This document shows positions 1,870 to 35,728 of a stretch of 64,000 nucleotides of DNA, piece by piece; position 1 is the first letter of the stretch, and each line of letters begins with the position of its first letter. Under the pieces are notes generated by a model that had not been told where the DNA came from, ran no database searches, and saw only the letters and a program-made list of their open reading frames with translations. Location of the stretch: positions 1,976,841 through 2,040,840 of the forward strand of contig RPFO01000082.1 of NCBI GenBank assembly GCA_009746045.1, read 5' to 3'. The DNA comes from Mesostigma viride. Its lineage: Eukaryota; Streptophyta; Mesostigmatophyceae; Mesostigmatales; Mesostigmataceae. The position numbers were made by a program, and so were the translations under genes.

Positions 1870-2084
1870 TTAAAGAACTGCACACGGTGCAGAGGCAAAA
1901 ATCCAAAGGACATCACTTTCAAATGTGCACCATGAACCAAAAGCCCACGTTTGAAAGAAAACATCATGTTACTGTAGCGACGCGACGGTGCATACATGTG
2001 GACAACGAATCCAATGCCAAGCTCAGAACCGCCTCTAAGGATATCTGGCATCACAGGGTTCAGATGCGCGGAAAACATTTCCAT

Positions 2085-2192
2085 GAAAAAACAATTTCAT
2101 TAAATGCTATACGCGTTCTACAAAAAGCTTACGACGCGATACATCGCGTTCTTACAAAAAAAAAAAAAAAAAAAAAAAAAAAAACGGGTTAA
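2085..2192 (+). repeat. A-tailed repeat end, similar to 80-170
   Basis: The sequence around TACGACGCGATACATCGCG followed by a long A run and CGGGTTAA repeats the arrangement seen at 80-170 on the other side of the TTAA element. It looks like the poly(A) end of a retroposed repeat. No gene is visible between 1874 and 2192. Confidence 0.5.
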
Positions 2193-2285
2193 TCAAAGAC
2201 GCGCTCCCGTTGGGGTCACGGACTAACGGAGTGTTAACCCCAATGTATGGATGGATGGACAAACAGTATTAACACTCCCGGTACA
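2193..2285 (-). mobile_element. LINE 3'-end fragment
   Basis: Read on the minus strand this contains GGGGTTAA, then a block around CCCCAACGGGAGC, the same order found at the 3' end of the minus-strand LINE (4110-4160). It is a 3'-terminal remnant without coding sequence. Confidence 0.5.
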
Positions 2286-4112
2286 GTATTCACGAGAATG
2301 GCTGACGGCGGTATGGCTGACGGCGGAGTTCAGATCTTTTGCATCTGAGCCCCAAATTCGGTCAGACCACTTGCATTCGATGCGCTTTTTTGAGACGCAC
2401 CCGCCAGTATAATCGGTTACAGCTGAAACGCAGTATTGCCGAAGTTATCACGTGACAGGCAGCTATGACGACCCGGCCTAAAGCAAAACGGGGTTTGGAA
2501 AAGGAGCTTACCGGCTCCCAGCCCAACCCGCTCGCCATCGTTCTTGCCCAGCCGCCTGGGCTCGCCAACCCACCGCCAGCAGCCCCATCGCCCGTGCAGC
2601 GCCTCGCCTGAGCCCAAGAAACCTCGCAAATGGAGCCAGTTCCTCCCCGGCGACCGACGATTCGGATTCACCGGGTGGCAAGAATTGTCGCCGCAGGAAT
2701 GCATTGAAGTTCTCCAGTTCCTCGAACAGGAGCGGAAGCTCTTCGTGCCCAACAAGGGGGGGGCGGCTATCGACTACAATGGAGACATGTCCTGGCTCTA
2801 TGCTTTGGACGAAGTACAACAACGCCTGATTATCTTGACCAGCCAATTCCAGATCCCCCTCGCCGACATCACCCGCACGCTCCGCACCCCAGCCCCCGCA
2901 CAGCCGGCAGCCCCATCGGCTTCCTCCCTCTGCAAGGATGACCTCCGCGCAGTGCTGGAGGAGCACGTGACCTGGCCGCTGGCCGAGCAGCTGACATCGC
3001 TGAGCACCACGCTCAACAAGGTCGAGGCCCGGGTCTTTAACGTGGAAACCAAGGTCGTCCACAAGCTACAACCCCAGTTCACGGCGCTACACACCGCGGC
3101 GCAGGCTTCGGAAACGCATGCTGCACTTGTCTCTCGCCTTAACCAGGTGGAGGGCAAGTGTGGCGTGCTCCTGAAGAAGCTTGAGGCCATCACCGCCCAC
3201 ACCGAGGCCCTGGCCACACAGGTCCCCAAGATAGCGGAGCAGACGGCCACCATTGCATCCCAGCCACCCCGGCAGGATGCTGGTGACCTCCCGCCGCTCT
3301 CCTACGCGGACCTGCTGCGGTCAGCGACCGCCTCCACCACCGACGCCATCGCCACAAAGCTCCAGGAGCTGGAGAACCACCGCCAGGCCCAGCAACGGGA
3401 GGTCACCAACCGCGCTCGCCGCGAGTGCCGAGTGGTGCTACGTCGCTTCCCCCAGAAGCCAGGTGAGACGTCAACCTCTCTTGCTGACGAGCTCAAGAAC
3501 CAGCTTCTTACCCTCATGGGCCTGGTAGGTGAGGTAGCACTGAGCGGGTGCCACCGCCTTCCCCACTCACGGGACAAGGCGGCTCCCCCACCAGTCCTAC
3601 TCACCTTCCCCTCCCCTGAGGATATAAGCAGCGGTTCCTCTCTCGTCGCAAGCGGTTGCACGACCTCACCTGGACGCTGGACGACGACCTCACCCCCGCT
3701 CAGCAACAGTGCTCAGCGACGCGACCTGTGGCCGGAATACCTCCGCCATAAGCAGGACCCCCAGAAGCCCAAGGTGTACTGGAGGGGCGGGGACCTGATG
3801 ATCAACCACAAGATGTGGACGCCCCCAGCGGGCTAGAATAGCAATAGCCCTAGATTGTAACCATTGGCGTCACTGCCGCTAAGGCAGCCATGCCTAGAAT
3901 GTTTGCCTAGCTGTGCCAACACACCTAGTCACGTGCCGCCAACGCACGGTACACAACCATGCAGCCATAGCCTTAGCCTAGTCCTAGTACAGCCATGCTA
4001 CGCCCTGGCTATGTGTATAGCCAAGCCATGCCTATAATGGGACCCCCCCATGGATGTTGCATTAAGAATTTAGCCATGCTATGCCATGCAGAGAGATTAA
4101 TTAATTAATTAA
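2285..4112 (+). mobile_element. LINE A: ORF1-only non-LTR retrotransposon copy
   Basis: The copy contains a 5' leader, an ORF1 (2465-3836), about 255 bp of 3' UTR and a terminal (TTAA)n tract at 4091-4112. No endonuclease or reverse transcriptase lies between ORF1 and the 3' UTR, although the related minus-strand element at 4091-9400 has them. Two other copies in the window (40255-41030 and 41963-44665) also go straight from ORF1 to the 3' UTR, so this looks like an ORF1-only derivative family rather than one random deletion. Confidence 0.75.
2465..3836 (+). pseudogene. LINE ORF1 protein, frameshifted
   Basis: The likely start is the ATG at 2465 (MTTRPKAK...), but that frame stops near 2611. 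The conserved reading continues in the frame open from 2544, so a frameshift lies near 2600. The protein has a Pro/Ser-rich N-terminus (SPEPKK), a long coiled-coil-like middle, a Tyr-Ala-Asp-Leu-Leu segment before the C-terminal domain, and ends with YWRGGDL...NHKMWTPP. Between about 3627 and 3720 the family motif RRKRLHDLTWTLDDDLTPAQ is in another frame, so a second, compensated frame change occurs there. ORF1 proteins of LINEs bind element RNA. Relatives here lie at 7863-9201, 42511-43935 and 40845-41030. Confidence 0.75.
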
Positions 4113-4289: not shown

Positions 4290-7200
4290 CTAGCGTGCCT
4301 CCCGCGGGATTGCACACGCGGGCGCTTCCCCACTGGGGGGGGCTCGTTGTCCTCTATGACCTGGGCCCACTTGGCCTTGTCCATCATCTTCTTCCAAATC
4401 ACGGAGAGGCCTAGGCCCCCCATGTCCTCTACTAGCTGTTCTTTGAAGGTGCGGGCCTTGCGGCGTCTAACATCACTGCATGGGCCCAGCCCACGTCAGG
4501 AGGTGCCGGCCAGGCTGGGCTGGTCGCAGTCCTGCGGGGGGGCCACGTGAGGTGTCTACCTGGTTGGTGCGAGCTAGGTGCCCTACTAGCTGCAGGCGGC
4601 GTTGCTTAATTGTGCTGGTGATATAGGGCATGCCCTGGTACAGGTCCTCATTGCGGACATGAGCAGCATATCCTACTCTGAAAATGGAACGCAGCATGCT
4701 GGTGACCGCGCCGTCCAGCTTGCGGGCCAGGTCGGCGGTGAGGGTCCACGTCTCGGCGCCATACGTGAGAACAGGAAGGACGAGGACCTTGAACAGGTCC
4801 TGTTTCTCGATCTTGCCCAGGGGCTTGCGCCACAGGGCCCGGTACTGGCGTAAAGCGTGCCAGGCGAGGGAGATGCGGTGGTCCACATCACCTCGCAGCT
4901 AGGGAGCAGGCTGCCCAGCAGCTTAACGCGGTCCCGATACAGGACTCGAGAGCCGTCTAGGAGATAGAGGGGCGGCGCTGAGGTGGTGAGCCCAACCGCC
5001 AGGGCCTCTGTCTTCTTGCTGACCTCAAGCCCCACTGCACGGGCCTCGAGAGCCAGGCAGTCAAGCCATGTCTGCACGTGCTCAGTGTCCTCAAAGAGGG
5101 TGGTGTCGTCTGCGTAAATGATGTCTGCTAGCCGAATCTCCGTGTCCGCACCGCCATGCCAGAATTTGTTAGCAACCTGCACTCCTGGTTCCCTGCCCAC
5201 GATGCGGGCAAATCGCTTGCGCGCCTGAATCATTACGTATTCGACAACAATAATGAACAGGTAGGGCGACAGCACGCAGCCCTGCCACACACCCTTCTGT
5301 AAAGGGCATGGGGGCGTGGTCCCGTAAGAAGTGCGCACCGAAGTGGTGGACCCTTCATACAGGTTGCGGATGACAGCAATCAGGGGGCGGGGGATCCGGA
5401 ACAACTCGAGGATGTCCCAAAGCGCAGGCCAGAAAACCGAATCGAAGGCTTTGATGAAGTCCACCAGCACAAGGTGCAAAGGGGACTCACCAGGCTGAAG
5501 GCGTTGCAGTTCCTCCACCAGTCGGCGAGTAGCGAAGAGCGCCTGTACTGTGTTGCGACCTGAACGGAAGCCGTGCTGAGTCTCGCTGAGGTGACCGTCC
5601 AGGGCCGTGCGCAGGCGGTTCAGGATGAGCCGCATAAGAAGCTTGAGGGGGGCACTTTGAATGCACACCCCTCTGTAGTTGCCGGGGTCGGCAGGCGACC
5701 CCTTGTTCTTGTACAGCATCGTGCGAAAACTGTGTTGCCAGGCCGCTGGAGGTGGTTGCGACGACAGCAGAAGGCGGTTGCAGATGTCCCGGAAGAGCAG
5801 CATAACACCTGTGTCCTCGAATTCGGCTGCAAGTTTTACAACTGCGGCCGGAATCTCGTCAGAGCCGGTGGCTGCGTCATAACGCAGGCGCTGGACCGCC
5901 TCCGTGACCTCGCGAGAGGTGAAAGGAGGCATGTCAGACGGGTCGCCAAGTGGGCCGACCAGCGGGGGGACTAGGTAGTCCGCCGCTGACCTAGGCGGGG
6001 CCGGGGGCCCTGCGGGGCCGGCCAGGGCGGCCGGGCGGGCGGCGGCGGCTGGGAGCAGGGGTGGGGGCGGCGCAGCTGTCCCCACGACCTCGGCCGTGGC
6101 CGTGGCCCAGGTACGAAGCCGCTTGGCTGGGGCGCCGGGGACGTCGTGGCGGTGGGGCCGGCCGAGGCCGTCCGGGTGCCCGAGGCGCTTGTACCAGAAC
6201 CAGGCCCCCTTGCCGTCGTGCTTCTGCTGGCAGCTGCGCAGGTCCTTGACCATCTGCTGAGCATCTGCCTTCTCAGCCTGCTCGTAGGCGGCCCTCAGAG
6301 CTGCTTGCAGCCCAGGTTTGGCGAGCGGATCTCTGTTGCGGCGGAGCATCTGCCTGGCGGCGACCACTGTCGGTGCGTGACGGTGGACAGCAAGCTGCCG
6401 ACGCGGAGGCAAGGTGGGGAGGGTGCGGGCAGCCAGGCGATACTTGGCGGCGACACCACGGAGGATCACTGAAATATCCCCCGGCGGCGGAATGGCGTGT
6501 AACTGCTGTCGGCTGCCCCCGGCGTCGAATACGGCCAGGAAATCATCCCTGTGCGACATAGCGGCCTGCTCTTCTGCTGACATCTTGTCGGCATCCTTCA
6601 GCACAATCCGGAGCACTTTCAGATCTGGCTGAGGTGCCAGCTGTCGCGACGGTTTCACCCCAGGAAACCGCAATCTGATGCGAGCGAGCACGAGACGATG
6701 ATCAGATTCCACCGTGCTGACAGAATCTTGCAGGACGCGAGCATCGACAACTGAGGGGCGCTGAGCCCGACGTACGCAGACATAATCAAGGCACACCACC
6801 CGATCCGACGGCCCAAAAAAGGTGGCCAGCTGCTCAGCGGGGCGTGCGAAAGAAGCATTGCATGCAACCAGCGCAGATTCTGCCAGCAGATTCGCAAATA
6901 AAGGCGTGTTACCGTTGGCTGTCGTGTTGGTTGGGGAATACTGAGCGCCCCCAGTGCCAACTGGCAGCGTGGCGTTGGCGTCGAGCAGCATAACCAGGAA
7001 GTGCCGAGCTGGGATGTTGGCCTCCTCCTCCTTGAGGGCGTCGAAGAAGGCCTCACGTTCCGCCTGAGCTCGACCCGCATGTGGTGCATATCCCACGATA
7101 ACGGTTAGCGTGTGGTGTGAATGGCCCTCAGTGGCCGAAAAAGTGGCCACTAGCACACGCGGGGACCGCAGCACGATGGACTGGAGCTGCTCTGATGCTG

Positions 7201-7497
7201 CCGGCGAGCACAAGAGGCCCACACCACCTTGGCCCGGCGCGTCGCCGCCACCATAGTGGAACCGCCAGCCTGCACGCAGGTCGTCGACCAGCAGACCGTT
7301 GACCGCGTGCTGAGGGTCAACGGTGCGTCGGTGCTCCTGGACTCCAAGAACAGCGATCTTGTTGTCGGCGCACAGGGCGATCAGCTCGTCGACGCGTTGG
7401 CGTGCTGGGGTGCCGCCGCTCGTAGAAGGATCTGCAGGGAGGGTGCGCACGTTAAAACTAGCAATACCAAGAATGGGCCGTTGCCCTATTAGCGGGG
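4290..7497 (-). pseudogene. LINE ORF2: APE-type endonuclease and reverse transcriptase, frameshifted
   Basis: The conserved start is ILGIASFNVRTLP just upstream of the first GTG at 7450, so translation should begin upstream of that codon. The N-terminal part has APE/exonuclease III-like motifs (VQEHRRT with the catalytic Glu, LLDANA, SDHRLVL). The reverse transcriptase follows, with the GNYRGV block, the FIKAFDSV motif (first catalytic Asp), GVWQGCVLSPYLF and YADDT (catalytic Asp pair). Near 4895 a one-base shift moves the C-terminal region into another frame (4473-4886), and a second shift near 4475 moves the last about 60 codons to the frame ending at 4290. Without these shifts it would be roughly 1,050 residues, normal for a LINE ORF2. 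No RNase H was seen. Confidence 0.88.
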
Positions 7498-7573
7498 GGG
7501 TGGGGGTGGGGGTGGGGGTGGAGAAGGGTAGTGCTGGAGGTGGGGGTGGGGTGGGGGGGGGGGGGGGGGAGGG
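7493..7573. repeat. G-rich simple repeat (GGGGGT)n
   Basis: This is a G-run tract with GGGGGTG units ending in an uninterrupted G run. On the minus strand it forms the C-rich spacer between ORF1 and ORF2 of LINE B. Confidence 0.9.
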
Positions 7574-7862
7574 TGGCGATTGGGGTTAATGCTTGTCAAC
7601 GCATGGAGGCTTTCTTTCAGGACGGATATGCGTCGTCTCCGTCCTGGCTGGGGTCGCCGGCGTGTCGACTGGGCCTCATCCCGCTCAAGGCGGGCTAGGA
7701 GGCGTGTAAGGCTGGTAAATTGGCGGGAAGGTTGACCGTGGCGTGCCTGGCGACCTTGCATCCTGATCATGCTCGCACGGTGCGACATGAGGATGGAAAG
7801 GGGCTTGTTTATAAAGGCTGTGCCCAAAGCCTATTGTACCGCGAGGCCGCGAGGGTGTGCCC

Positions 7863-15656: not shown

Positions 15657-20906
<5,250 letters not shown>

Positions 20907-20929
20907 GTACGTGACACGTGCACACGTGG

Positions 20930-22130
20930 GTGGTGGATGGCCCGCGCTGGTGTGGGTGCTGGCATGCGCCCGGGCAGCGGCGTGCTGTGGCATGCCCGGG
21001 CGTGGATACTGGCCGGCGTGGACGTGGTGGTGGATGGCATGCGAGGGCGTGGTTGAGGGCCCGCGTGGGCGTGGTGGTGGATCAGGCGCGGGGGGCATGG
21101 GGTAGGGCCAGCGCGGGCGTGGCTGTGGGCGTGCGAGGGCCCGGGGGTTGTTAGCATGCCTGGGCGGGGTGGATGGCACGCGCGGGTGCCGCCGATGGCA
21201 TGCGTGGCCGCGGTGGTTGGTGGGCGTGGTGGCGGAGGGTGGCGTCCGTGGGTGTGGCGGTGGATTCCATTCGCGGGTGTGGTGGCTGATGGCACGCGCG
21301 GGCATGGTTGTTGGCGGCGTGCGTGGGAATGAAGGTTCGTGGCACGCGCGGGCATGATGGCTGGTGGGAGTGGGGGGGGCGGGGATGCTGGGGTGTGTGC
21401 TTTGTGGTTGCCGACAATCGTGGGTGTGGATACTGGCCTGCGTGGGCATGGTGGTCGACGGCGTGCGTGGGCCTATGGTTGATGGCATGCGTGGTCTGGG
21501 GGTGGCATGCGCGGGCGCGGTGGATGGCACACGTGCGCCGCGTGGTTGATGGCACGCGTGGGTGTACTTGCTTGCATGCGTGGACGTGGTGGTCAACGGC
21601 ATGCATGCGTGTGTGGTTGGTCACATACGTGTGCGTGGTTGTTGGCACACGTGGGCGTGGTTGCTGTCACGCACGGGCGTGGTGGTGGATGGCATGCGTG
21701 GACACGGCGGTTTGTTGCATGTGTGGGCCTGGTGGTCGGTGGTGTGCGTGGGTATGGCGATTGATGGCCCGCGGGGGGGGGGGGCCGTAGCCGATGGCAT
21801 GCATGGACATGTGGGTCACTGGCACGCGGGGATGTGGTTGCTGGCATGCGTGGGCGCGGTGGGTGGTGGCAGTGGCGGCGGTGGATGTCATGCGTGGGTG
21901 TCAATCAGATGGCATGCGCGGGTGTGCCGGTGGATGGCATGCGTGGGTGGTGTGGTGGGTGGCGTCCGCGGGGGGCCTGGGTGGCCGGCGCGTCGATGCC
22001 ATGGGTGGCATCCGCGGATGTCTCACATGGCAAGCATTGGTGTGTTGGTTTCTGGCGCGCGTGCGTGTGGTGGTGGGTGGCCTGCATGGGCGTGGTGGGC
22101 AGGGGCACGTGGTGGTGGGAGACGCGCCGC
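20930..22130. repeat. Degenerate GC-rich minisatellite of about 30 bp
   Basis: Loose repeats of GGCATGCGTGGGCGTGGTGG plus a TTGATGGC-like linker start about 25 bp after the donor at 20907 and continue to about 22130. Unit length and sequence vary widely. It would be a single 1.28-kb intron if the gene upstream splices to 22192. Open frames through it are not credible proteins. Confidence 0.85.
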
Positions 22131-22191
22131 CGTCACTTACCCACGCTCTGCTCGCGGGCCCCGTGGTGATGTCGTAAAACACTGTGTGCAG

Positions 22192-24237
22192 AATGGGACG
22201 CGCCGGACTGGCGAGCCGAGCGGGAACCACGCCGAGAATAGCATGGTGAACGTGCGGAGTTCCAGGTGCCAACACCCGACCAGGTGTGATGCGCGACCCT
22301 CGTTTGCGGAGCGCGGCGCCAAGAAGGCCCGGTTCTGCAAGAAGCACAAAGAGGATGGCATGGTGGACGTGGTGCATCCCAGGTGCCAACACCCGCCCGG
22401 GTGTGATGCGCAACCCTCGTTTGCGGAGCGCGGCGCCAAGAAGGCCCGGTTCTGCAAGAAGCACAAAGAGGATGGCATGGTGGACGTGGTGACTCCCAGG
22501 TGCCAACACCCGGGGGTGCGAGGCGACACCCTCGTTTGCGGAGCGCGGCGCCAAGAAGGCCCGGTTCTGCAAGAAGCACAAAGAGGATGGCATGGTGGAC
22601 GTGGTGATCCCAGGTGCCAACACCCGCCCGGGTGTGATGCGCAACCCTCGTTTGCGGAGCGCGGCGCCAAGAAGGCCCGGTTCTGCAAGAAGCACAAAGA
22701 GGATGGCATGGTGGACGTGGTGACTCCCAGGTGCCAACACCCGGAAGGGTGCGAGGCGACACCCTCGTTTGCGGAGCGCGGCGCCAAGAAGGCCCGGTTC
22801 TGCGAGAAGCACAAAGAGGATGGCATGGTGAACGTGCGGAGTTCCAGGTGCCAACACCCGACCGGGTGTGATGCGCAACCCTCGTTTGCGGAGCGCGGCG
22901 CCAAGAAGCCCCGGTTCTGCAAGAAGCACAAAGAGGATGGCATGGTGGACGTGGTGAATCCCAGGTGCCAACACCCGCCCGGGTGTGATGCGCGACCCTC
23001 GTTTGCGGAGCGCGGCGCCAAGAAGGCCCGGTTCTGCGAGAAGCACAAAGAGGATGGCATGGTGGACGTGGTGAATCCCAGGTGCCAACACCCGACCGGG
23101 TGTGATGCGCAACCCTCGTTTGCGGAGCGCGGCGCCAAGAAGCCCCGGTTCTGCAAGAAGCACAAAGAGGATGGCATGGTGGACGTGGTGAATCCCAGGT
23201 GCCAACACCCGCCCGGGTGTGATGCGCGACCCTCGTTTGCGGAGCGCGGCGCCAAGAAGCCCCGGTTCTGCAAGAAGCACAAAGAGGATGGCATGGTGGA
23301 CGTGGTGAATCCCAGGTGCAACACCCGGAAGGGTGTGAGGCGTATGCAAGATGGGGCGACGTGGGTAAACGCGCCGTCCACTGCGCGAAGCACAAGGAAG
23401 ACACCGCCGTCCCTGAGCCGCGACAACGGTGCAAGGCGGACGCATGCCGGGCCGTGGGCACGTACGCGGACCCGGATCATGGCGAGCGCTTCTGCGACGC
23501 CCACGCAGAGGCGGGCCACTGGCGGCTGACGGGCATGTGCGACGACTGTGGTCTACACTGGGAGTGGAGATCGGGGGTGCCCGTGGTCCTCACCCCAGCA
23601 GAGGGCAAGATCGCGGGCCAGCGACGGCCCCTTCACAACCGCTGCGTGTACTGCGACCCCGTCGTGTTCAACAATCATCGACACCGCGAGGAGTGGAAGG
23701 TGGCCGCTGCCCTACAGAAGGTGCGCATCGCCCGGTGGACGCTGGTGCACGACCGGCGGATCCACGGCGGCGAGTGCGTGGCGAGCCGGCCGGATTTCAT
23801 CATATACACGGATGGTGCCCACGTCGTCATCGTCGAGGTCGACGAGCACCAGCACCGCTCGTACGACCAGTACTGCGAGCTCGTGCGGCTGTTCAACCTC
23901 GGACAGTCGTGCGAGGGGCTGCCGCTGCTGGTCATCAGATACAACCCCCACTCGTACCGCAGCTCCGGGGGGAACTCGTCCACGGGGGACCGATGCCAGC
24001 GACGAGCAGCGACAGGCCGTGCTGCTGTCGTACGTGACGGCGTTGCTAGACAATTCGTACAACCCCCACGAGCGCAAACCGCAAGTGCACTGCCGAGCAG
24101 TGAAGCTTTTCTACAATGGATGGGATGACGACGCCATGACCGTGCCCACCGACGAGGGCCCCCACTGGCTGGACATCCAGCTAGTCGACAAGCCCTACGA
24201 GATCGCCTGCCTGGCGGAGGCGGCGATCGAGCCGTAG
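22192..24237 (+). CDS. EsV-1-7 repeat protein with C-terminal PD-(D/E)XK-like nuclease domain
   Basis: From a likely acceptor (GTGTGCAG at 22184-22191) an open frame encodes at least nine near-identical 39-residue units, C-x5-C-x16-C-x2-H-x12, each 117 bp, with the core SFAERGAKKARFCKKHKEDG. This spacing matches the EsV-1-7 motif (usually C-x4-C-x16-C-x2-H-x12) known from Ectocarpus virus EsV-1 and brown algal proteins. Two diverged units and C-x2-C pairs (CDDC, CVYC) follow. The last about 180 residues hold ASRPDFIIYTDG, IVEVDEHQHRSYDQYCELVR and VIRYNPHSYR, a PD-(D/E)XK-like core resembling uncharacterised proteins of large DNA viruses. Frame changes: a 2-base then a 1-base loss in unit 3 (about 22513, 22605) restore frame; one base is lost near 23318 and one gained near 23990. 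The stop is at 24235-24237. These may be errors or decay. Confidence 0.8.
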
Positions 24238-24400
24238 CTGGCGCGTCGCGCATGTTGTGTTGGGTAGTCACACGCTCGTGGATGTAGACCGACCGGTTTG
24301 GTTGTGCTGAACACCGGCCTCTTGTAAACCACACATGTGCCGAGGTGGCTGTCCTGATGCCTGCGAAAACGCCTAAATGGAGGACGCTGGGACCGTATAT

Positions 24401-25852
24401 TTAACCAATAAATGGGCAGAAATACTGCCGATGCATCGGCTGTAACTTCACAATTTTGCAAACCAGATGCCATCCAACCCACCCATATCCAATGGCTGTC
24501 CTTGGGGGCCAAGCATGTCCATGAGTTGCCCTTCGGGTGAGCTATCACAACCTCACATATATGCAGGGTAGGCCATGTATAACTGCCGTCAAAGTCAGGG
24601 GGGTCAAGACGCGCGTATTCATTTTTGGTAGAATGTGCATTTTGAATTATGTTGTAAGAGCTAGGCACCTACCACTTCAGGGATGATAAACAATTAGCTG
24701 CCGAACAGTTTGAGCCATTGGGGTCATCATTTGGGTGGGTATACCAGCAATTACACCCAGTACAGCCCGTAGGGGTACCGGTGGTAAAAAGCAGCCAAGG
24801 GGGTAGGGGTGGGCATACTACCTACTAATATGGCCACCAACCATGCCAAACAATACATTTCCCTTCCACAATGATGGGGAAACATAACTGCATCATCACA
24901 CTGCCCTTACATGGCACCTATGTGCAGGTGCCACCTTGTCCATGCACGTAGGTAACGTGGTACGGATACCCTACGCAAGGCATGCGTTCTAGGAGGCAGC
25001 CACCAACAAACTAGTGATGTTGAGCCTATTTCAGCCTGCCCTAGCAAGGATAAACTAGGCCTAAGCCGCTATAGCTTGCCAGGTGATGGCCAGCACACCT
25101 GGTGGCACATGCTGTCAATGGGAAGCTTTTACTCACCAGTTACGTGCTTGATGATGCCACAGAGACCAGCCAACTGCCTCACACTCATGCAATATGTGTA
25201 TGGGAAATGTATAACAAACATACATGGAGGTATTCAAACCCATACAGCCTCTAAAACTTATCACCATCACCCTGTGGCAGGTCAACTGACTGAGGGAAGC
25301 ATCTAATAAGGGTGTTTTAGAAAGGGGCTAGGCCAGGGTCAAGAAAGAGCATGAATAATGCAAAAAGAATGTGCTACACAAGCTAGAACGTATATATAAA
25401 TGTCAAACATCGACAGGAAAACGATGCTTGAGCTTTACCAGGCATGGATGGCGTTACCTTGGCCCAGGCGGTGGCCGCAAAATGGCGCATTTCGGCACAC
25501 CAAAGTTGTGCAGCATGGTCGCTGGATTCGGCGATTTCTGGCCACCCTTGCACGTTTACGAATACTATGTATCATAAAAAGTAAAAAGAAACCGATATAT
25601 CCTTTAAAATACGCCGGAAATGTATTGCTGTCAACGTTTCTATCGTCCGGCCTGATCGCAGTTTTTTCCAGCGAGAGCGCTGCCGACACCTATCAAATGG
25701 CATTCCCGCGAACCAATAATTGGCCTGTATCATCTTTAGGACGTATAAAATCGATTTCCTGAGTTTGGTCAGGAAATTCTGACGAACACGTAAATGCCAT
25801 GCGTGGGCGCAAGCCGCCATGGCCAGGTCGTCGTTTTCCGGAATGCACGTTG
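24401..25852. mobile_element. Second copy of the TTAA element, left 1.45 kb
   Basis: The sequence begins TTAA-CCAATAAATGG, two changes from the left end at 167-181, then follows 178-1637 closely until ...CCGGAATGCACGTT, where the copies diverge. The right terminal repeat is absent. It starts about 165 bp after the stop of the EsV-1-7/nuclease gene. Substitutions and small indels show it is not an assembly duplicate. Short ORFs inside occur in both copies but show no conserved protein. Confidence 0.75.
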
Positions 25853-26466
25853 TAAGTACTGTCGTTTCTGAGGGTGCCCACGGGTGCCGACTCAATAATC
25901 CAGGGCCTGCCAAGGACGCAGATGAACGGTTGGAGGAAACCCTACGGTGTACGTCAGATGTGAGGCTTGGGACACAACAACAACAACGACGGTGTAAGAT
26001 CTTACGGCAGATCCACCCCACTTCATTTTCACGTGCCCTGCAGGCTGGAGAAGTTTTTTACAGCTTCCAGCAGAAGAGAGTATGAATGCAGGCGGACAGC
26101 ATTACAGAGCTTTTCTTTGTAGGTAACCCGGTAAGTGGGTATTGCGGTAACCCGGTAATGGCAGTGGCTTGCCCTAGCTGGTTTGACCAGCCTTCTCCAC
26201 TGGCTTGGATGTTTTTTTGTTTCACATGAAGTCTTGGCGTAGACAAAAAGGATAAGTGGTAGGAACGATGGTTACCGCTTGACATGCGTTGCATTGCTTA
26301 TCCATTTCTCGTGCCTGCAACAGCCGTGGCAGTCTCCTCGATGCGCAGTAGAACAACCATGTACAGTAGAAAAATCGCACAGCCGCTGGCTGTACATATT
26401 ACTTGGATCTGCCATGCTTCCATCGCGTAAAAGTTTGGTGTCTTCGTAGCTGTGATTCACGGCCTC
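25853..26466. other. Upstream region of the CDC14-like gene
   Basis: No gene was recognised here. The sequence contains GGTAACCCGGTAA twice (near 26123 and 26145) and must include the promoter of the gene starting at 26467. No clear core promoter motif was seen. Confidence 0.4.
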
Positions 26467-33148: not shown

Positions 33149-34170
33149 TTAAGAGGAAGGCAGAGAAAAGACGCTCCGCCAAATGCGCGGGGGGCAGGCG
33201 GCGATAGCCCAAACCAGGGCGTCAGGAAGGGTGAGGGCCAAGCTCCGGTGCAATCCCACATAGTGGGCGATGTCCAGTTTTGCTGCTGCGCCCGCGACCC
33301 CGATGCTGAATATCAGCCATGCTGCGCTGCCGCAAAAAATCATAGGTAGCCCCCCCATGACGCAGCCCGTGAATGGTAAACACCGTGTCGACCCCCAAAG
33401 CCTGCGCGGCCTGATGATGCCAAACCCGGCTGAACTGGGCATAATCGTAAGGGAACACACGCTCCCAGGCCGCCTTGCCACGCATACAAACCCGCAAGAG
33501 GGTCTCAGACATGACATCCTCGACCACCACAGATTGCACCGCCCCCTTAGCCGTCTTAGCTGACATCAGCAACAAGGCGCCCCGCTGCGAACCCCGCAAC
33601 CGAACATCAGGCTGCAAGCGCACATGGCCGACCAACAGGTTGAGCGCCTCCGATACCCGCAGGTATTGTTGGAAAATAACGATGACCATCATAGCCGCAC
33701 GAGGCTGCCGCGGGAGCACCATAGTACAAGCATTGAGCGCAAACGCAGCCTCCCATGGAATGGGGGGGGGGTCACGAGGGGGTGCCAACGTGCGCCAGCC
33801 ATGCAGCCAAAACACTTTGTGCCAAGGCCCAATCCCGCACCTCCCGGGGAAAGTACAGATTCAGGCCCATAAGCGCATTGACACACACAACTGGCGGCAT
33901 GTAACACCGTGAGTGCGCCCAAGCGACATACTCGCAATAGTATTCCTCAATCGTCAAGCCGCGCAACAAGCTGCCAGCCCGACCCCGCCGGCTCGCCCAC
34001 CATGCGAAAAAGGACCTACTAAGGCCCTGATGGGAAACCATCAAAGTAGCCGGCTTCACCTTGCCCTCAAGAAGGGTCAAGTAGCTAGCGCCAAGCCGAG
34101 GCCCGGGATTGGGATGAACACCCTCGCGAGTCAAATCGCGGACCCACCCGGCCACCGAGGCAGCCATGGA
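33149..34170 (-). pseudogene. DIRS tyrosine recombinase, frameshifted
   Basis: An N-terminal helical part (FFAWWASRRGRAGSLLRGLT, FPREVRDWALAQSVLAAWLA) is followed, after a frame change at a C run near 33765, by YLRVSEALNLLVGHV (catalytic Arg), then HGLRHGGATYDFLRQ (His-x-x-Arg) and IQHRGR. The expected nucleophile tyrosine is in another frame (AAAKLDIAHYVGLHR), reached by a one-base shift near 33290. Without both shifts this would be a complete recombinase of about 300 residues; as read it is inactive. Confidence 0.78.
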
Positions 34171-34740
34171 AAGCCCCCGCGAAGGCCCATCCGCAGGCTG
34201 AAGCTCACTTGGCGTCCAGACCCATTGTGAGCGGCTGCCGGTGACCAACGTAAGAGCGCACAACCGGCGGCATTGCTTGTTTAACCGGTACCTAAGAAGA
34301 GGAACGCCCTTTAGCCAAGCAGCCCAAAGCGGCAGTGGAGTCCACTAACCTCACCACCCGCTTCCCCCAGGTCCCGAGGTTCCGGGCCGAGCGCTCCACC
34401 CCCTTCACAGCGGCCCGCACTTCCTTCTCGTTGATGTGCATCAGTGGTCGAATCGCGCCAGCGACTCTTGATCCCTACGCGCCATCGCCCGTGGATGATG
34501 GCTCTTACCGCGGCCTTGGTCAAGGGTCTAGGCCCGGCATACATGGCCTCACCTGGGGTGAGGAGGGTTGGGTAACCCCGCACCTCCCGGGCCCGAGCTA
34601 GTTCCGTCACCTCAGCTGGGGCCATCTCAGCGTAGACAACCCCCTGCCCAAAACTAGACGCATCCGAAGCCACCACCACCGGAGCCAGGGCAGCCCCCCG
34701 GTCCACACGGAGCATGATCAAATCCTGAAGAAGCAACCCT
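34171..34740 (-). pseudogene. DIRS RNase H-like fragment, frameshifted
   Basis: The open frame to 34311 begins MLLQDLIMLRVDRG and contains PVVVASDASSFGQG, an RNase H first strand with its Asp. After about 34450 the family sequence (AAVKGVERSARNLGTWGKRV, then DSTAALGCLAKG) is in other frames, giving at least two shifts. No reverse transcriptase is present before it. Confidence 0.65.
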
Positions 34741-34745
34741 GAGCG

Positions 34746-35728
34746 GAGGTTACGCGTAGGTTACGTATCCTTCCGACTGTAGCAACTTGTCTCCGTCGTG
34801 TTTTTTGGTCCTCCTGGACTTTTTTGTCATTTGTGGTCCTCCCGAGTCCCGTTGCGTAGTTGCGTTTTCTTTCTTTGTGATGATTCTCGTTGCCCGTAAT
34901 ATTACCTACCAGCTATATCTGTGAAACAGCTTGGTACAAAAGACGCGAACCCAGGAACTCTTGCATCAATTCGCGGCTAATGCTGTACAGTAGGGGTCTC
35001 CTAAACTTCTGATCCCTATACCTTAACTAAAACTTTTCTGGAATTCTGGTTATGCGGTATGCCTGACGGAGGCTGCCTACATTCATAGCGCCGTAAAGGC
35101 GGATATATATAGTTTAAATTAAATACAAAGAGCGTCCTATCCTCATCTACTCGTCAATTGATGTGGATATGCTACATATATACTTAATGTGCTAAGCTAA
35201 AGGGCCTGTCGGAAGAGTGCGACCCAATATTTCTGAAAGTAGACATTTACAGTTCTCTGCTCGCCCAAGTCCCGACTCCCGGACCTCGTTCCTCATTCAA
35301 TAATGTATTATCTGCTAGCTCTTTCCGAGTATCCGTGTGTGTTGAGCTTTGCCATGTAGGCCCAATGATGAATGATCGACAACTACAAGCATTGGCCTCG
35401 GTTGCTCACCTGCGCCATAACGACCCTGCTCCGGTTCCCAGTTGCCACCGTCTTCGAGATAGCGGCATTCCATGCTTCTAAGGTCAATATGGCCCAACAG
35501 ATCTGCTTGATGTCATCTTCGCTGCGGCAGGATACTTCTGTCTCCAACTTTTGGCTTTCCAGGGGATACAAGGTCAAGGATTCTAATATTGTGCCGGTGA
35601 GGGACGGCGCACCTTGCATGCATGCCATCATAGGATAAGCGGAGGGAAATGTGTCTTTGCATAGTAATGCTTGTGTGCTCTATATAACCGTTTGGGACCC
35701 TCTCGCGTTTCGAATTTCGTCTTTACAG
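34746..35728. other. Region with no confident gene; possible upstream exon
   Basis: The region is AT-richer, with an open frame at 35372-35638. A candidate exon at about 35503-35573 would encode LLDVIFAAAGYFCLQLLAF and end in the right phase for the exon at 35729, but nothing else supports it. Confidence 0.3.

Follow-up and report, generated by a model that had tools for sequence, protein, structure and literature searches.

A multi-copy gene family of the green alga Mesostigma viride joins EsV-1-7 repeats to a putative Vsr/NERD-like nuclease domain

The EsV-1-7 family (PF19114) is named after protein 7 of the Ectocarpus virus EsV-1 and includes the brown-algal protein IMMEDIATE UPRIGHT (IMM), which controls brown-algal development. 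In the literature found, as far as its accessible text goes, these repeats have no established biochemical function, and the accounts of IMM and EsV-1-7 make no mention of a nuclease in that text. An EsV-1-7 domain is also present at the N-terminus of TcMar-2_Ec32, a transposase of Ectocarpus (PMC12477816). Nucleases of the Vsr-like and PD-(D/E)XK types are described from mirusviruses, where they are homing endonucleases carried by introns (PMC12768974).

It is instructive to compare these systems with a gene found in a window of 64,000 nucleotides of Mesostigma viride DNA (the whole stretch that was analysed), which lies on a 5.1-Mb contig of an assembly of 440 Mb and 2243 contigs. The gene follows the C-x(4/5)-C-x16-C-x2-H-x12 plan of the EsV-1-7 family, in arrays, but unlike EsV-1-7 and IMM proteins its array is joined to a nuclease-like domain and it occurs in a green alga and in high copy number. 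The N-terminal position of EsV-1-7 is as in TcMar-2_Ec32, where it is carried by a DNA-acting enzyme of a mobile element; TcMar-2_Ec32, however, is a Mariner/Tc1 transposase, and the accessible part of its description mentions such a domain but no long array (PMC12477816). The likeness to the mirusvirus nucleases would lie in the predicted Vsr-like/PD-(D/E)XK type and in the probable association with viruses of unicellular eukaryotes, but those enzymes sit inside spliceosomal introns, unlike the Mesostigma gene, and the accessible text mentions no zinc array (PMC12768974). Among the literature matches listed, which leave subscription papers outside, no title or abstract opening reports a fusion of EsV-1-7 repeats with a nuclease. 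A brown-algal host was ruled out by the rbcL reading frame, which is of the green type. We take this frame to be form IB. Several full-length rbcL copies with equal scores are present on both strands (contigs C996, C602 and C900), and they would represent the plastid inverted repeat or duplicated plastid contigs.

The features of the locus are collected in Table 1. TRF finds a 117-bp unit in 9.5 copies with 92% matches (score 1889). Ten unit starts follow each other at 117 bp, one spacing being 114, and the pattern C-x5-C-x16-C-x2-H-x12 is read in a single frame in eight of the ten units, which confirms the tandem units described in the initial annotation. The EsV-1-7 identity proposed there is supported as well: Pfam EsV_1_7_cys (PF19114, curated cut-off 25 bits) matches positions 22228-23313 with 387.8 bits (E=7.1e-119), and the next frame (23313-23990) with 35.1 bits (E=1.2e-8) in two stretches, the first of which is the remainder of unit 10. 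The spacing of the first cysteine pair is C-x5-C in the array of the window subfamily as opposed to the canonical C-x4-C in the arrays of a second subfamily, S2. Pfam matches of the array to ribosomal L24 and SBP, both above cut-off, were taken as cross-matches to Cys/Lys-rich repeats.

Table 1. Positions of the gene, its domains and the surrounding repeats in the window
Feature	Position	Strand	Basis or remark
Gene-bearing fragment of the dispersed repeat	18709..25880	+	most other copies examined extend further on both sides
EsV-1-7 array, ten 117-bp units	22234..23342	+	TRF, PF19114; unit 3 lies off the frame, and unit 10 contains a frame break
Remainder of unit 10, then a last, degenerate EsV-1-7 unit, next frame	23313..23510	+	PF19114
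Two C-x2-C pairs, zinc-ribbon-like	23538..23654	+	sequence; four Cys invariant in the six sequences of alignment A1
Putative Vsr/NERD-like PD-(D/E)XK nuclease core	23682..23978	+	motifs; NERD E=0.0041, below cut-off
Core motifs	RPDF (Asp at 23793), E-V-D-E-x-Q-H (23835-23855), RYNP (23937-23948)	+	
C-terminal part of the gene, another frame, to the stop codon	23974..24237	+	continuous with the nuclease in intact copy L028
Very abundant dispersed repeat R, adjoining the gene on its downstream side	24401..25857	+	solo copy at 167-1628

The C-x2-C pairs and the RPDF/VEVDEHQH/CELVR/RYNP core are present as first described, within 23532-23978. Their conservation was followed in two alignments, A1 with six sequences from three groups, and A2 with seven (the window, its subfamily, termed E, a group at about 78% identity, S2, and the metagenomic relatives L082, L083 and L084). 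R-P-D-F, E-V-D-E-x-Q-H and R-Y-N-P are invariant in all six sequences of A1; in A2, E-V-D-E-x-Q-H, an Arg and R-x-N-P are invariant in all seven, and the Asp is present in all six sequences that cover its position. L084 has Arg-Ile-Asp-Phe in place of Arg-Pro-Asp-Phe, and the last motif reads Arg-(Tyr/Phe)-Asn-Pro over the two alignments. The motif His is replaced by Tyr (EVDEHQY) in one inverted copy. An Asp and a Glu are thus conserved in the alignments, but with E-x-D where a PD-(D/E)XK-type active site would have E-x-K, and the His is as in Vsr.

Profile searches gave low scores for nucleases of the Vsr/NERD branch. NERD (PF08378) is matched by the window (18.0 bits, E=0.0041), by the 78% group (18.7 bits, E=0.0026) and by L028 (16.5 bits, E=0.012), all below the curated cut-off of 22.1 bits, and the Pfam scan gave no NERD match for S2, L082 and L084. 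Unrelated families score alike below threshold in the same scans, namely Peptidase_M14 (E=0.0094 in L028, where it surpasses NERD) and DUF7461 (E=0.0044 in S2), so the NERD match alone proves little. When the A2 profile was compared with 38 of the 46 coding sequences from a 50-kb stretch of Escherichia coli, Vsr ranked first (score 23.5, the next being 19.0); the alignment spans 17 columns on LPGRPDFVVDEYRCVIF, the active-site motif, with an hhalign probability of 6%, and two of 200 shuffled Vsr sequences scored as well. If the alignment is extended by eye, the Glu falls on Thr63 of Vsr and the His, six residues later, on His69; together with Asp51 these are presumably the active site of Vsr. 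The best phmmer match in the PDB was mt-SAF13 (E=0.066), profile searches of the PDB with the domain gave no match, and the best E-values in NCBIfam (0.12), PHROGs (0.24) and PADLOC (0.022) were not significant. The domain resembles the Vsr/EDxHD/NERD branch of the PD-(D/E)XK nucleases in the RPDF Asp, the acidic residue and the His at similar spacing, as well as in these weak profile matches; it differs from Vsr in having Glu in place of Thr, in the fusion to zinc arrays and in scores below curated thresholds. The PD-(D/E)XK assignment made in the initial annotation has found sub-threshold matches only (NERD at E=0.003-0.012, Vsr top-ranked), and we keep it as a plausible but weak prediction.

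Across the genome, 62 matches to the nuclease-like domain were counted, in some cases several pieces of a single gene. Twenty-seven copies, the window's included, are 88-100% identical to the window domain over at least 155 of 185 residues, which together with the 92% matches between units supports the recent expansion suggested earlier, for the units and for the gene as a whole. A stop-to-stop frame with both the nuclease domain and EsV-1-7 units is found in 15 of the 27 (532-983 aa, a measure that overstates protein size). The third group, at about 78% identity (70% in the opposite copy), consists of inverted pairs on contigs C69, C336, C1170 and C856; three of its copies (L036, L037 and L038, on C69 and C336) belong to inverted pairs that meet tail to tail with hardly any spacer. 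Subfamily S2 has 11 copies with 41-49% identity to the window domain and its own C-x4-C EsV-1-7 array. The whole S2 domain is matched unbroken in eight copies and is broken in three. Five were read over their full length: L062, L063 and L066 each form one open frame (561-599 aa), while L064 and L065 have a break near the nuclease end. EsV-1-7 repeats as such have at least 150 scored matches in this genome, out of 500 candidates.

A scan of 84,980 prokaryote genomes gave three relatives, L082, L083 and L084, among 102 candidate stretches. L082, a 5.3-kb contig filed under a bacterial (Terriglobia) MAG, has a single ORF with eight PF19114 stretches followed by the nuclease-like domain (38% identity); all eight EsV-1-7 matches of this MAG are on one contig, and an ORF next to the fusion is that of an M16 peptidase. 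In L083 a single EsV-1-7 unit scores below threshold (20.7 bits), and the nuclease core is in another frame. In L084 (positions 2017-3441, PAUB01000010.1, filed under an Opitutaceae MAG) one ORF joins a C2H2 array to the nuclease-like domain (32% identity); seven fingers with TGEKP-type linkers are seen by eye, and Pfam zf-C2H2 matches at E=2e-21. In two-sequence BLAST comparisons with S2, L082 gave E=2e-38 and L084 E=3e-8. The three contigs are probably misbinned viral or eukaryotic DNA, and Capsid_NCLDV was not found in the three source MAGs. A search of the host genome with the L084 nuclease found nothing, but it is uninformative because it missed the known copies too. The family is similar in plan to engineered zinc-finger nucleases, with the zinc array N-terminal and the nuclease-like domain C-terminal, and L084 carries C2H2 fingers on the very same domain. 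The differences are that the Mesostigma/L084 family is natural, that its targeting is a prediction, and that its domain differs from the nuclease of the engineered proteins, which we take to be FokI.

A change of arrays on a retained nuclease-like domain is also suggested by the repeat units. Units of the window subfamily (24 distinct units from three loci) have a mean identity of 54% with the 12 units of two nuclease-free host genes, as opposed to 38.5% with S2 (29 units) and 46.7% with L082 (5 units). It is this likeness, together with the C2H2-nuclease case, that leads us to suggest that arrays may have been exchanged while the nuclease domain was kept. In terms of selection, the window subfamily is near neutral, with a median dN/dS of 0.73 (162 of 190 pairs, dS above 0.01). 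Ratios of non-synonymous to synonymous rates, from codons seen at least twice, are 1.23 in E arrays and 0.94 in E nuclease domains (Fisher p=0.43), as against 0.41 in S2 arrays and 0.34 in the arrays of nuclease-free host genes. This sample has 143 units and 20 nuclease copies, L010-L016 being dropped as near-duplicates of the window copy, and the Cys/His columns cannot vary in it, because the pattern used to select the units requires these residues. The near-neutral ratio and the unit variation give no PRDM9/TALE-like signature, and diversifying selection of that kind on the array was rejected as not significant; twelve positions picked post hoc have a ratio of 2.15 as opposed to 0.75 in the other 27, a contrast that does not count as a test. 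The near neutrality of the E copies would be more in keeping with a population of selfish or dead copies than with a gene family of the host.

The initial annotation had further suggested capture from, or exchange with, a giant virus, and here the picture is mixed. The algal genome has at least 150 scored matches to the NCLDV capsid family out of 507 candidates, all scored ones over the cut-off, a sign that this green alga carries endogenous giant-virus-like DNA in very large amounts and many copies. Capsid matches often lie two or three together within 1.5-10 kb (e.g. on C1579, C1468, C446, C365 and C2223), and equal scores recur on different contigs. Three of the 11 S2 copies were examined for virus-like genes and had them nearby or on the same contig. 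Those on C1489 and C1475 share their contig with an NCLDV capsid gene, at about 78 and 51 kb, respectively. The third, at 493 kb of C777, has an ATPase with the P-loop GGGKTTL about 8 kb away (in Pfam only AAA_10, E=3.6e-5), presumably similar to the packaging ATPase A32; a DUF5764 gene (E=1e-22) and a gene with a SET domain are no further from this S2 copy than about 10 kb. No E copy was found within 0.9 Mb of the capsid matches listed (150 of the 507 candidates). The homologues that had been attributed to large algal viruses were not recovered: scans of IMG/VR and searches of phage collections, whatever their share of NCLDV, gave no relative, and plasmids gave no match. The single IMG/VR match to the EsV-1-7 pattern was antisense to an ORF that by eye is recombinase-like and was taken as chance. 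What stands of the virus-like claim is therefore indirect, namely these S2 neighbourhoods and the fusion on a foreign-looking contig in a bacterial MAG, and from this evidence we consider that the family is probably of giant-virus ancestry.

The window copy itself is a truncated, frame-broken fragment within a large dispersed repeat. Homology among E copies extends beyond the gene on both sides, and all 19 other copies examined past the left point at 18709 continue into a common flank (one is partly N), which rules out a clean mobile-element end there; with flanks that continue in other copies on both sides, the window holds a fragment of a large dispersed or duplicated unit. The adjoining repeat R, about 1.46 kb long and about 96% identical at many places in the genome, follows the nuclease gene, at least with its first part, in all 27 E loci compared (L009-L035), and of the 40 places listed for it 30 lack the gene, as does the solo position in the window. 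Beyond repeat R, seven of the 11 other copies examined have a further common flank that is absent from the window after 25880, and six of these seven flanks carry 207-bp repeats in an orientation opposite to those on the left. A 2A-like motif (DGDVESNPGP) lies in a frame several kb upstream of the nuclease gene at L059:4058-4400, within the shared repeat; this frame could be a 5' exon of the nuclease gene or part of another element. An F-box gene (E=1e-7) is found at L059:174-785 on the minus strand, in DNA common to several copies of the unit. The window also has a LINE-type ORF (4676-7585, minus strand), whose 970 aa include a reverse transcriptase and an endonuclease domain, and at 33225-34760 (minus strand) a weak tyrosine-recombinase match (E=0.003, below cut-off) adjoined by what by eye is an RNase-H-like stretch, possibly a DIRS-like element.

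On sequence grounds, we propose a modular, natural family resembling zinc-finger nucleases, made of an EsV-1-7 array, a zinc-ribbon-like linker and a Vsr/NERD-like nuclease, and we would put this proposal only a little short of an even chance. The N-terminal array would anchor the protein to nucleic acid, with DNA as the likeliest ligand, and the C-terminal domain would cut where the array sits. The array is swapped among members (EsV-1-7 of the C-x4-C type, EsV-1-7 of the C-x5-C type, C2H2 fingers) with the nuclease-like domain kept, a layout shared with engineered zinc-finger nucleases. Giant-virus DNA was probably the vehicle by which the family arrived; one subfamily was amplified with its flanking DNA in the green alga, giving the 27 close copies.

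There are several other ways of reading the locus. The window copy may be merely decayed or misassembled and give no product, a view to which we assign even chances. It has three frame breaks (inside unit 3, where it is compensated, in unit 10 at about 23.32 kb, and near 23.97 kb), its left end is cut, and a comparison over 1.7 kb with six near-identical contigs shows nothing but small indels in five of them, and one indel and about four substitutions in the sixth. However, indel-only differences among near-identical copies are also expected of an unpolished long-read assembly, and for this reason the true locus may be intact. It is almost equally conceivable, if slightly short of even, that the gene is a passenger in a large repeat amplified by a transposon, by tandem arrays or by segmental duplication, with no part of its own in the spread. 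In C224 the blocks shared with other copies reach, with interruptions, some 12 kb beyond the upstream side of the gene, taking in tandem arrays of 207 and 221 bp, a (TGGT)n tract, the 2A-like frame and the F-box gene; the right flank is common to seven contigs, the window included, up to about 28.1 kb at 100% identity, and reaches about 34.7 kb in C226 and C1689 and, with a gap, about 33.5 kb in C615, as in segmental duplications; and no terminal inverted repeat was found that pairs the ends of the truncated window fragment. Against this, open frames persist in 15 of the 27 copies, and a partial scan of the upstream ORFs recognised no transposase.

The activity may also be other than proposed. 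We think it unlikely that the array regulates, i.e. that an IMM-type EsV-1-7 regulator of the host has acquired a nuclease-like domain that is inactive or accessory. The same alga does have EsV-1-7 genes with His/Gln-rich tails and no nuclease in that frame (L004 and L008), the units of the window subfamily are closer to host units than to those of S2, and the E-type copies evolve near neutrality; but wherever an aligned sequence covers the proposed active-site residues they are conserved, the inverted copy that lacks the His being an exception, and the nuclease-like domain is also found on C2H2 fingers and on foreign-looking contigs. That the target is RNA, with knuckle-like zinc repeats and a nuclease that degrades host or viral transcripts, appears to us quite improbable. 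Short zinc knuckles often bind RNA, and the accessible text of the literature found establishes no ligand for EsV-1-7, yet in the relative L084 the fingers are of the C2H2 type and are joined by linkers canonical for DNA binding, and in Ectocarpus an EsV-1-7 domain is carried by a DNA transposase (PMC12477816).

If the modular nuclease is the right reading, its predicted DNA cutting might serve the spread of its own gene in a homing-like, selfish manner, competition between viruses, or the host. We further speculate, as a rather doubtful generalization, that giant viruses and the genomes they invaded carry natural zinc-finger nucleases in which one Vsr-like domain is re-targeted by exchange of arrays (the two kinds of EsV-1-7, or C2H2), as a selfish or weaponised cutter of rival or host DNA; EsV-1-7 repeats would in that case be a DNA-reading module. 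With a nuclease-like domain attached to the repeats, and with C2H2 fingers in their place in a relative, the DNA-binding hypothesis for EsV-1-7 becomes directly testable. If it is true, natural nucleases with interchangeable zinc arrays would be a possible new source of programmable DNA binders, and the family would be a new actor in the conflicts between giant viruses and algae.
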